Source: a virus. Taken from it: 24,859 nucleotides of DNA. Below the pieces are notes generated by a model. The model did no database searches. It saw nothing but the letters and a program-made list of their open reading frames with translations, and was not told the DNA's origin. Each line of letters begins with the position of its first letter. The stretch's first letter is position 1. This document shows, in pieces, positions 7,546 through 15,827 of the stretch. The stretch lies in the IMG/VR virus record IMGVR_UViG_3300028809_000065, positions 1 to 24,859 of that record. One strand, written 5' to 3'. The position numbers and the translations under genes are program-made.

Positions 7546-7827
7546 ATGTACGACGAGACGAATGTTCCCGGTCCTGAGTTCCGGGTCCGCCCGGTTGTCC
7601 GTTACGTGGTGACCCGGTTCTGCCATCCCTACATCGACCATTCGATCACAATACCCGACAACAATCCGGGGACCTATGTGCCTGGGGGGAGTGAGGTTCT
7701 GGCAGAAGTCCCCAGCGAGCAACGGGCCTTTGAGATCGCCGAGGCAATGAAAGCTGCTGAGGATAAGTGGCTAGGATCTTCTGAATCTATGGCGATTAGC
7801 GGCCGTCCCCCGCAGCCGCAGGGCTAG
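7546..7827 (+). CDS. Hypothetical protein (93 aa)
   Basis: ATG 7546 with GGGGCAGGAGATAGC upstream. The N-terminal 60 residues are beta-rich (FRVRPVVRYVVTRFCHPYID, then TYVPGGSEVLAEV). An amphipathic helix follows (EQRAFEIAEAMKAAEDKW) and a Pro/Gln tail. This 'beta sheet plus one helix' order is common in small phage proteins of unknown role. It is the last protein gene before the structured non-coding region. Confidence 0.65.
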   Translation: MYDETNVPGPEFRVRPVVRYVVTRFCHPYIDHSITIPDNNPGTYVPGGSEVLAEVPSEQRAFEIAEAMKAAEDKWLGSSESMAISGRPPQPQG

Positions 7828-7853
7828 GAGTTTCCCCGCTCCGAATCCCGCCA

Positions 7854-8241
7854 GCCCCGAGCGCATCGGGGCGACTACCCAGGCGGCGGAACTGCCTAGT
7901 GTAGGGGCCGCGCCGGAGACGTAACCGGCGACTTAAAGTGGTGGCATTGGTGTTGGATCGGTATCTTTCGGTGACGGCCGCCCAGTCCAGCAGCCCCGTC
8001 AGGCAGCCAGTGTTACCACTTTAGGTCTTTGGACTAACGCATGCGGCTTGTCGGGCTGGAATAATTCGGCCCCGATCTCGCGAGGACAGGCCGCAGCCGT
8101 TAGTCTTTGGGATGGAATGCGCAGGCTATGCGCTAACGAGGAGATGCTTGGGGCTACGGCTATGCCTCGCCTATAAGCCGACCTCCGCGACGTGAAGCGG
8201 TGGACGGACGGCAGAAAACCAAGATACAGGGTTAATCCCTG
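7854..8241 (+). ncRNA. Candidate large structured non-coding RNA upstream of tRNA-Gln and the late genes
   Basis: About 430 bases without a usable reading frame fold locally from end to end. There is a 7-bp hairpin GCCCCGA/TCGGGGC (7854-7872) and a 6-bp one, CGCCGG/CCGGCG (7911-7930). A 21-position helix joins 7930-7950 to 8007-8027, with 17 Watson-Crick and 4 G-U pairs and no mismatch. A second helix joins 8032-8052 to 8085-8105, pairing 19 of 21 positions, capped by GGGCTG/CGGCCC (8053-8072). Small hairpins follow at 8119-8133 (GCGCA/TGCGC) and 8227-8241 (CAGGG/CCCTG). The G-U pairs only work on the plus strand, which fixes the RNA's orientation. Both long helices are followed by the same GTCTTTGG. 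It is not tRNA, tmRNA or an intron core that I recognise. It could be a late-operon leader, antitermination signal or phage ornate RNA. Confidence 0.55.
8148..8177 (+). promoter_or_regulatory. Possible sigma70 promoter ahead of tRNA and lysis genes
   Basis: TTGGGG (8148-8153) and TATAAG (8172-8177) are 18 bases apart; the -10 matches 5/6 and the -35 only 3/6. It would place the tRNA and the amidase in one transcript. It lies within the structured region, so selection for RNA structure may explain the sequence instead. Confidence 0.3.
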
Positions 8242-8258
8242 ACCATCCCGCCTTTTGA

Positions 8259-8332
8259 TGCCCCGTAGCTCAGTGGCAGAGCATCCGGCTTTGACCCGGA
8301 TGACGCAGGTTCGATTCCTGACGGGGCTGCCA
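8259..8332 (+). tRNA. tRNA-Gln (anticodon UUG)
   Basis: All four arms can be drawn by eye. The acceptor TGCCCCG pairs with CGGGGCT; the D arm is GCTC/GAGC with AGTGGCA; the anticodon arm is TCCGG/CCGGA with loop CTTTGAC (anticodon TTG at 8291-8293). The T arm has loop TTCGATT. The discriminator is G73, as in bacterial glutamine tRNAs, and the CCA end is encoded (8330-8332). Two imperfections are seen: U1-U72 at the top of the acceptor, and G-A at the base of the T stem. It would read CAA codons, which are rarer than CAG in this GC-rich genome. It lies directly downstream of the structured RNA and 41 bases before the amidase. Confidence 0.95.
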
Positions 8333-8373: not shown

Positions 8374-8892
8374 ATGGCAGTCCTAATCTCGGCAGGACAC
8401 AGTAACCAGGATCCGGGAGCGGTCGCTAATGGCCGCCGCGAGGCCGAGATCGCCACGGACTTCCGGAACATCCTCGTCACCTGTCTGGCTGACTTAGGGA
8501 TTCAGGCTGAGACAGACGGGAAGGACAAGGATAATCTCCCGCTGCGTGAGGCGGTGAAGCTGGCGAAGGGCAAAGATATCGCTATCGAAATCCATCTCAA
8601 CGCCGCCGCCAACCCTACGGCATCCGGCGTCGAAACCCTGTCGGGCCCCGATGACATGCAGCTAGGCGCAAAATTGTGCGCCGCAGTATCCCAAGCCCTG
8701 AACATCAAGAACCGGGGCGCCAAGCCTGAAAATGCGGGCCAGCATCACAGATTGGCCTTCGTGCAGGCTGGCGGGATCATCCTAGAGCTGTTTTTCATCA
8801 CGAATCCTAACGACCTAGCGGCTTACGATGGCCGTAAGTGGCCCCTAGGGCGGGCCGTGGGAAAGGTGATCGAGGATGCTTATCGTGCCTAG
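8374..8892 (+). CDS. Endolysin: N-acetylmuramoyl-L-alanine amidase, Amidase_3 type (172 aa)
   Basis: Matches the zinc-dependent Amidase_3 family, which cuts the bond between N-acetylmuramic acid and the first alanine of the peptide. Visible zinc ligands and catalytic residues are H9 in LISAGHSNQDPGA, a Glu in RREAEIA (E23/E25), H74 in IEIHLNAA, and the catalytic E138 in GIILELFFITN. It is a single catalytic domain without signal peptide or cell-wall-binding domain, so export depends on a holin. The ribosome binding site is weak (AAAGG, 9 bases away). It heads the lysis module, and its end overlaps the next gene by 17 bases. Confidence 0.9.
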   Translation: MAVLISAGHSNQDPGAVANGRREAEIATDFRNILVTCLADLGIQAETDGKDKDNLPLREAVKLAKGKDIAIEIHLNAAANPTASGVETLSGPDDMQLGAKLCAAVSQALNIKNRGAKPENAGQHHRLAFVQAGGIILELFFITNPNDLAAYDGRKWPLGRAVGKVIEDAYRA

Positions 8893-9118
8893 TTGGGTTC
8901 CAACCCTGATCGGGTCAGTTGCTCTCGCGCTGGCCTCCGGGCTTGTTGGCTGGATATGGGCGCTCTGGCGCGACCACCACGCCTTACGGGTCAAGATCGC
9001 CGAGGAATACCCCAAGAACACCGCCTTGAATGAGTTCAAGGAGGAGATTCGCCAGTTGCGTGATGTGGTGTATCGTATCGCCATGCGCCTAGAGGTTCCG
9101 GTGATTCGGAGGGATTGA
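8876..9118 (+). CDS. Small membrane protein, lysis module (80 aa)
   Basis: ATG 8876 lies inside the end of the amidase gene after GAGG. Residues 5-30 (WVPTLIGSVALALASGLVGW) form a single membrane helix. The rest is a charged helix (LNEFKEEIRQLRDVVYRIAMR) likely to form a coiled coil in the cytoplasm. Position next to the endolysin makes a single-span holin, antiholin or accessory protein plausible, but the 142-residue protein at 9770 has more typical holin features. Confidence 0.6.
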   Translation: MLIVPSWVPTLIGSVALALASGLVGWIWALWRDHHALRVKIAEEYPKNTALNEFKEEIRQLRDVVYRIAMRLEVPVIRRD

Positions 9119-13722: not shown

Positions 13723-15827
13723 TGGCGACCCGGAAACGCACCAAGAAGACCGAGCAGGGCAGCTTGCAGACCTATACGTCTGAGGTTGTCCCATCGTCGG
13801 CATCAAAGTCGGACTCGCGTAGCCCGTGGATGCTGTCCATGCTCCAGCGGTCTCAGGACACGTTCACCTTTGACACGGAGCAGCGCCGTCGATGCCTGGA
13901 GGACATGAAGTTCGCCTTTGTGGCTGGGCACCAGTGGGACCGTCACTTGGCCGGCAAGCGCCGGAACAAGCCCAACTACGAGTTCAACCGTATCCGCCAG
14001 TTGATCCGCCGGGTCACGGGCCAGCAGTTGAAGAACAAGCCTCAGATCAAGGTCCGCGCCGTCGAGGAAAACGACGTTGATACGGCTGAAATTTATAACG
14101 GCCTGATAAAGAACATCGAGGTACAGTCATCGGCTGAGAATGCCTATGACACGGCATTCCAATGGGCTTGTGGTGGCGGGTACGGTGTTCTGAGGGTCAC
14201 GGCTGAGTACGAGTCTGACAACTCATTCGATCAGTGCTTGAAGATCGTCAACGTCATGGACCCGCTTACGGTCTGGTTTGACCCTGCGGCTCGGAAGTTC
14301 GACCGTTCGGACGCCCGTTTCGTCTTCGTTACTGAACTGATCACCAAGGAGCAGTTCAAAGAGCGGTGGCCTGACGCGGAAATGGTGGATTTCGACATCC
14401 CATCGTCCTTGGACTCCTTCGATAAGGAGTGGTTCTACAAGGACATGGTGCGAATCGCCGAGTATTGGTACATCGAGAAGGAGCCGGTGACGCTCTACCT
14501 GCTGTCCGATGGTGCGACAGTAGAAAAGGAGGAATGGGACCCGGTTCGTGACGAATGGGAGAATCCGCCCGTTGACCCGGCTACCGGCCAGCCCGCATAC
14601 CAGCCAATCACGGTCAAGCAGGAGCGCGAGTCCACAAAGTCAGTGGTCTATTCGTGCCTGGTGTCTGGCCGTGGCCAGTTGGAGAGGCCCACCAAGTGGG
14701 CCGGAACCATGATCCCGATTGTCCCGCAGTGGGGCGACCTGATCAGCATCAACGGCGAGCAGATTTACTCGGGCATGACCCGGTTCGGCCGCGACGCGCA
14801 GACGGTGCACAACTTTGAATTCTCCACCATGGTTGAGGTGGTCGCCAAGCTGCCAAACAGCCCGCTGACCGCTACTCCAGCCATGATCAAAGGTCTGGAG
14901 AGCTATTACGAGCGCATGGGGTTTGACGACGCCCCGGTCCTGCTGTTCAACGTGGACCCGAACTCTCCCCAGGCTCGCCCGACCCGTGAGCCTCCCCCGA
15001 TGCTGCCTGCTGCCTTGGCAAGCCTGTCGGCTATCGCAACGGACGAGTTGAAGGCCAACCTGAGCGTGTACGACGCCTCCATTGGCGCACAGGGCAACGA
15101 GTCCTCTGGCCGCGCGATCCTTGCCCGTCAGAACGAGGGCGAGATTGCGAACTTCAACTACATCGATAACCAGATCAAGGCCCTGAAGCGACTTGGCGAG
15201 ATCCTGGTTGACGCCATCCCGCATATCTACGACGGCGAGCGGGCCATGCGGATTCTAGGCGAGGACAACGCCGAGAAGTACGTGGAGATCAACAAACCGA
15301 TGCTTAATCAGCAGACAGGCCAAGTGGTGATCCAGCACGACCTGACGCGAGGCAAGTACGACGTGACGGTCACGGTAGGCAAGAACTTCGACACCGCCAG
15401 GATGGAGTTGGCAGAGGCTGCGCAGGCATTGGCAGGACAGCCGGGACCGTTCGGGGCACTGGGCCAGTTCATGCTCCTGAAGTCCCTCGACCTTCCCGGC
15501 ATGGACGAGTACGTAAAGGCTGCCCGCAAGGTCCTAGTGTCTCAGGGCCTGCTGGAACCCAGCGATGGCGACCAGCCGCCGCAACCGCCTCCGCCAGACC
15601 CACTGATGATGACCAAGGCCGAGTTGCAGAAGGCCCAAGCCGACAAGGCCAAGGCCGAGACGGCGCAGATCATGGCCGAGACGCCATCCAACATCGAGAA
15701 GACGCAGGCGGACACGAATCGTGCGCAGGCTGACGCGCTCAGGGCTGCGGCTCAGGCGGGGAACTCGGTTGGTCAGTTTGAGCTTCCGTCGGGGTTTGCT
15801 GGGCCTTATCAGGGTGGGGCGCAGTGA
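13722..15827 (+). CDS. Portal protein, P22 gp1-like (701 aa)
   Basis: The dodecameric ring at one capsid vertex through which DNA enters and leaves and to which the tail attaches. Length (P22 gp1 has 725 residues), position after TerL and features fit the P22 portal family. These include an N-terminal RRRCLEDMKFAFVAGHQWD segment, NRIRQLIRRVTGQQLKNKP, and the crown/wing region. Another is a stretch near residue 465 (YDASIGAQGNESSGRAILAR), which I recognise as characteristic of these portals. The C-terminal 90 residues are Ala/Gln/Lys repeats (KAELQKAQADKAKAETAQIM), matching the helical barrel that extends into the capsid in P22. Its last 89 bases are overlapped antisense by the gene at 15739-16143. 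Confidence 0.92.
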   Translation: MATRKRTKKTEQGSLQTYTSEVVPSSASKSDSRSPWMLSMLQRSQDTFTFDTEQRRRCLEDMKFAFVAGHQWDRHLAGKRRNKPNYEFNRIRQLIRRVTGQQLKNKPQIKVRAVEENDVDTAEIYNGLIKNIEVQSSAENAYDTAFQWACGGGYGVLRVTAEYESDNSFDQCLKIVNVMDPLTVWFDPAARKFDRSDARFVFVTELITKEQFKERWPDAEMVDFDIPSSLDSFDKEWFYKDMVRIAEYWYIEKEPVTLYLLSDGATVEKEEWDPVRDEWENPPVDPATGQPAYQPITVKQERESTKSVVYSCLVSGRGQLERPTKWAGTMIPIVPQWGDLISINGEQIYSGMTRFGRDAQTVHNFEFSTMVEVVAKLPNSPLTATPAMIKGLESYYERMGFDDAPVLLFNVDPNSPQARPTREPPPMLPAALASLSAIATDELKANLSVYDASIGAQGNESSGRAILARQNEGEIANFNYIDNQIKALKRLGEILVDAIPHIYDGERAMRILGEDNAEKYVEINKPMLNQQTGQVVIQHDLTRGKYDVTVTVGKNFDTARMELAEAAQALAGQPGPFGALGQFMLLKSLDLPGMDEYVKAARKVLVSQGLLEPSDGDQPPQPPPPDPLMMTKAELQKAQADKAKAETAQIMAETPSNIEKTQADTNRAQADALRAAAQAGNSVGQFELPSGFAGPYQGGAQ

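Follow-up and report, generated by a model that had tools for sequence, protein, structure and literature searches.

What is the nature of the roughly 400 nucleotides that separate the early genes from tRNA-Gln and the lysis genes in an uncultured P22-like phage, where no protein appears to be encoded? The window, that is, the whole stretch of 24,859 nucleotides that was analysed (IMG/VR record IMGVR_UViG_3300028809_000065), is a fragment of this phage, of which a longer contig of 40,095 bp (L021/L082) is also known. Portal, scaffold and coat-type proteins are encoded downstream, a NinB-like protein and a RecA-dependent nuclease upstream. The interval lies between the last upstream gene (7546-7827) and tRNA-Gln (UUG; 8259-8332, +), which is followed by the endolysin gene (an amidase, PHROG 435; 8374-8892, +) and an 80-amino acid lysis-region gene (8876-9118, +). 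It is therefore situated at the early/late junction, where lambdoid phages keep their late leader.

Predicted folding of the interval ahead of tRNA-Gln

No ORF of 60 amino acids or more is found on either strand between 7828 and 8231. Folding of positions 7835-8260 yields -200.2 kcal/mol with a z-score of -5.34, and none of 100 shuffled sequences folds as well, while the reverse strand reaches a z-score of only -2.21. An earlier note, based on the sequence alone, had described two successive 21-position helices in this interval, and both are confirmed. In the first (7930-7950 with 8007-8027), 21 of 21 positions pair, four of them as G-U on the plus strand; in the second (8032-8052 with 8085-8105), 19 of 21 positions pair. 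Each long helix alone has a z-score of about -5.2. The note's interpretation as a plus-strand structured noncoding RNA next to a tRNA at the head of the late genes is supported by the folding asymmetry, by covariation in homologues and by the absence of protein genes in homologous intervals. Its suggestion of two similar modules is, however, not well supported. It rests mainly on the repeat GTCTTTGG at 8025-8032 and 8103-8110, of which GUC is the last strand of each helix and UUUG is a single-stranded linker. The main feature, namely the nature of the 3′ domain, was missed by the note.

The RNA, which extends from 7854 to about 8252 on the plus strand, starts with hairpin P1 (7854-7872), GCCCCGA-GCGCA-TCGGGGC. 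Hairpin P2 (7875-7904; CUAC..AGGCGG/CUGCCU..GUAG), seen in both the minimum free energy and the centroid structure, is followed by P3 (7912-7929; GCCGG-AGACGUAA-CCGGC). The long hairpins P4 (7930-8027) and P5 (8032-8105), the latter with a conserved CAU/AGC internal loop, are separated by the UUUG linker (8028-8031). The 3′ domain (8109-8252) is closed by pairing of GGGAUGG (8109-8115) with CCAUCCC (8243-8249) and ends six nucleotides ahead of tRNA-Gln. No Rfam 15 family matches the interval apart from the tRNA; for GOLLD and ROOL, no match is obtained either at the gathering threshold or at an E-value of 5. Matches to mir-290 at 7928-8028 and to P26 at 8088-8141 are below threshold and are attributed to chance.

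Homologous regions in other phages

A first relative, designated L083, is another IMG/VR phage with an endolysin that is 88% identical. It carries a shorter version at the same place, including P1 (with one different loop base), one long hairpin with the same base as the second helix (GACTAACGCATGCGGC / GCCGCAGCCGTTAGTC), the UUUG linker and the closing stem GGGATGG/CCATCCC, which is followed by GCCA and then by a tRNA. P2 and the first long helix are not present. The apical parts differ completely but still fold (z = -5.2). The tRNA body next to this RNA (L083:4973-5064) is intact, but its anticodon loop is replaced by a 23-nucleotide loop holding a small hairpin, leaving no readable anticodon. 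A scan with GTCTTTGGGATGGNNTG found only L083, the phage itself and chance matches, amidase relatives other than L083 are not in the same context, and the pattern GGGGCGACTA..CATGCGGC gave two coding chance hits (L266, L267).

Homologues of the 80-amino acid gene led to Stenotrophomonas phages S72 and CUB19 and to Xanthomonas phage Kintu, and the Kintu interval in turn led to phage SOVA965 and Acinetobacter phage Silvergun. S72, CUB19, Kintu and SOVA965 have an unannotated noncoding gap of 640-920 nucleotides between the early genes and the tRNA cluster and endolysin, to which the RNA of the window is homologous; the homology to Silvergun is partial, and the interval there carries only small predicted ORFs. 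The helix GAGUUAUCG-CAU-...-AGC-CGAUAGUUC-AUUU of these phages corresponds to P5. Over seven phages, all 84 cells of the two P5 helices are paired, six pairs change on both sides, and 20 both-side changes are counted against a shuffled mean of 6.1, while sliding of the helices leaves 21-62% paired. Sequence identity between window and L083 in P5 gives no covariation, so only the wider set was used. In the four Stenotrophomonas and Xanthomonas phages, P5 is followed, in SOVA965 after an insert, by a second closed domain that begins with AAUGC..; in Kintu and SOVA965 it begins AAUGCGCAGGCUGAUGCGC. Silvergun keeps P5 but has a degenerate tRNA-like element where the module stands. tRNA-like inserts with the T-arm sequence GGTTCGA are found inside the homologous RNAs of Silvergun and S72 (L274:2722-2845 and L274:3005-3108; L270:2690-2760), in one case at the tip of P5.

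The tRNA-like module and its distribution

The 3′ domain is a divergent member of a widespread phage RNA module, which occurs in at least 120 IMG/VR contigs and in phage P1. The module comprises a closing stem of 7-9 bp, AAU, a 4-bp hairpin with an 8-nucleotide loop (H1), a variable region, and a 5-bp hairpin (H3) abutting the stem. Most carry the same plan, with H1 as GCGC-AGGCUGAU-GCGC and H3 as GCCGG-AGAUCAGCA-CCGGC, followed at once by the complement of the stem. With the location fixed by the second hairpin only, 66 of 80 modules have at least six contiguous closing pairs. Fifty-six distinct stems give 402 of 448 paired cells against a shuffled mean of 281 (maximum 318), and in an alignment of the module eight of nine closing pairs change on both sides, with 95.2% of cells paired against 28-48% upon sliding. 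H1 was fixed by the search pattern and gives no covariation evidence. Modules avoid coding sequence, as 8 of 121 lie in ORFs of at least 120 amino acids on their own strand against 49% at random.

The loops of the two hairpins are complementary (GCUGAU with AUCAGC), which would allow a kissing interaction. A motif search in which the loop was not fixed gave 87 hits, of which 86 are convincing modules with a complementarity of 5 nucleotides or more and one (L289, one of the loci retrieved for the motif; AGCCC) looks like chance; there was no hit in block-shuffled DNA. Variants found were GGUGAU/AUCACC in L341 and UGGUGA/UCACCA in S72, and CUB19 shows GGUGAU/AUCACC by eye. A base plus CCA directly follows the stem in 12 of 62 modules, where about one is expected. 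A stem, 2-3 nucleotides, a 4-bp arm with an 8-nucleotide loop, a 5-bp arm abutting the stem, loop-loop contact and N-CCA represent the topology of a tRNA whose anticodon region has been replaced, albeit with loops that pair by six Watson-Crick bases and without an anticodon arm of fixed form. Proximity to tRNAs is not universal. Intact tRNAs lie within 1 kb of 14 of 120 modules against 5.5% at random, 13 of them on the same strand, and T-arm-like sequence lies within 200 nucleotides upstream in 10 of 116 against 1.5%.

A covariance model of the module (R1), built from 33 modules without the window or L083, places its best hit in the window at 8107-8251 (+), with a modest score of 21.4 bits (E 2e-4 with filters off). 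H1 (D-arm-like) is AAU GCGC-AGGCUAU-GCGC at 8116-8133, with the hairpin at 8119-8133 and its loop one base shorter, while H3 (T-arm-like) is CAGGG-UUAAU-CCCUG at 8227-8241, one base (A) from the closing stem and different from the consensus. In this copy the H1 and H3 loops are not complementary, and the stem is followed by GCC (8250-8252) and U, compared with GCCA in L083 and L031. Neither ARAGORN nor RF00005 recognises a tRNA in 8109-8252. A stretch within the portal gene, GCGCAGGCUGACGCGC at 15723-15738 of the window, resembles H1 but has no closing stem and is probably a chance occurrence. In 778 kb of other phage DNA, including T4 and phi80, only L012 and L031 were hit at E<=0.1, both plausibly. 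L031 and L012 are terminase relatives of this phage and carry the module at the same place, directly before tRNA-Trp and before a holin-like gene. In L031 (5845-6140), a tRNA-like element with an odd anticodon arm, the 5′ leader and 3′ trailer of which pair (TCATAGCGGTGA / CACCGCTATGG), precedes the R1 module ending CUCUCC-GCCA and tRNA-Trp, and a TTGACA..TAGGAT promoter motif lies upstream. The late leaders L044:850-1160 and L046:7090-7430 look alike by eye, with TTGAC promoter motifs, a CCGCGAGAGCGG hairpin and GAGTTGGG..CCCATTC, but no R1 module was found in L044 or L058 at E<=0.1 or in L044 or L046 at E<=1. The upstream hairpin P3 (GCCGGAGACGTAACCGGC) recurs as an identical 18-mer in L289 and L295, two phage loci retrieved for the downstream motif, and in a near-identical form in P1. 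The RNA of the window is thus a mosaic of elements shared across this RNA family.

Phage P1 carries two modules between tRNA-Thr and tciA and, in some P1 records, a third. The two lie under the ORFs plp and upl, which are annotated on the other strand (AF234173, 69153-69722, minus strand; L400:932-1501) and may not be genes. mEp460 has one module, and the stretch designated L287 also matches phiV10, cdtI and Klebsiella phages. A 401-base stretch with one module has near matches in 1693 of 5426 complete E. coli genomes, though a match need not cover the module itself. Overlap with Rfam is only partial. Proteo-phage-1 RNA (RF03044), of only 82 nucleotides and not including the 3′ module, matches the 5′ part of the homologous region in SOVA965 (34.7 bits, cutoff 42) and weakly Silvergun and Kintu, but neither the window nor its 40-kb contig. 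In locus L404 (reverse complement 930-1480), a TTGACA promoter-like site, two terminator-like hairpins, Proteo-phage-1 RNA (73 bits), tRNA-Gly and a holin-like gene occur in a row, with Proteo-phage-1 as part of a late leader. STnc100 (RF02076; cutoff 47 bits) gives a match of 33 bits in P1 that coincides almost exactly with an R1 module hit of 30 bits (L400:1538-1661), suggesting that STnc100 may be related to this family. Other weak STnc100 matches are not R1 modules, and none is found in the window or its contig. The T4 stable RNAs species 1 and 2 (rnaC, rnaD; L409:1409-1672), made within a tRNA cluster and of unknown function, look tRNA-like by eye, with a canonical T-arm sequence at the end of rnaC and CCA at the end of rnaD, but R1 does not match them and homology is not shown. 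The M3 RNA of phi80 is an oop homologue on the other strand, and phi80 has no R1 hit. Relative to Rfam 15 and the open-access texts searched, no description of the module was found.

Inferred mechanism and alternatives

In the absence of transcription, processing or stability data, the mechanism can only be inferred. Most likely, the RNA would be transcribed together with tRNA-Gln and be cut out by tRNA-maturation enzymes, with RNase P acting at the tRNA-Gln 5′ end (8258/8259) and plausibly at the acceptor-like stem near 8108/8109. It would then accumulate as a stable RNA in late infection and act in trans, like the tRNA-adjacent ornate phage RNAs GOLLD and ROOL. RNase P is known to process tRNA-like substrates beyond tRNA (PMC11143913), and an acceptor stem stacked on a T arm is probably what it recognises. 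This scenario is considered somewhat more likely than not. Against it, the window's copy is divergent, and no sigma-70 consensus promoter was found just upstream. The data do not separate it from the first three of the alternatives below, nor these from each other.

Among these, assembly of the RNA with itself into a large ordered particle, perhaps enclosing tRNAs or processing enzymes, is possible but unlikely. GOLLD and ROOL form cages stabilised by quaternary kissing loops, and GOLLD rises during lysis and can hold tRNAs in its linker (PMC12286853); neighbourhood in phage tRNA islands, size range, mosaic architecture and kissing loops are in line with this view. On the other hand, there is no match to the Rfam models of either RNA, other motifs are present, the kissing pairs could equally be intramolecular as in D- and T-loops, and the 3′ module occurs alone in many phages. 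Only slightly less favoured is a function solely in cis, as an antitermination or readthrough element of the late operon (HK022 put-like, or part of a Q/qut leader) that lets RNA polymerase reach the lysis and head genes. The position at the nin-region/lysis junction, where lambdoid phages have pR′ and their late leader, the TTGAC-type promoter and structured leaders of related phages, and the arrangement in L404 would fit. However, the RNA is much larger than put, and the module also occurs outside late leaders (near the repressor in mEp460, beside tRNA and tci genes in P1), several times per genome and sometimes with N-CCA ends. A role as source of base-pairing small RNAs, like the prophage RNAs STnc100 and PasD, is doubtful. 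It is suggested by the coincidence in P1 and by the fact that STnc100 RNAs are transcribed in EHEC, where one was seen on a northern blot (PMC5331693), but only the P1 site agrees, the window has no STnc100 match, and no obvious 3′ terminator with poly-U was found on the plus strand. That the interval is mere debris of a decaying tRNA array and inverted repeats is very unlikely, since, despite the odd tRNA-like pieces around it in L083, Silvergun and S72, compensatory changes and constant motifs maintained across many phages are not expected for debris.

It is rather more likely than not that a large, previously unnamed family of modular tRNA-mimicking RNAs exists in P1, lambdoid, Klebsiella and Stenotrophomonas/Xanthomonas phages, of which Proteo-phage-1 and STnc100 would be fragments or relatives, and of which the window carries a multidomain member released by tRNA processing in late infection. 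Phages often carry tRNAs and a few large RNAs of unknown function, such as GOLLD, ROOL and the T4 stable RNAs. A covarying tRNA-shaped module without a decoding arm, spread over many phages including P1, would be a widespread overlooked class of phage RNA. It turns the question of what large tRNA-adjacent phage RNAs do into a testable one in P1 and E. coli, and it also implies that some annotated small ORFs, such as plp and upl in P1, may overlie RNA genes.
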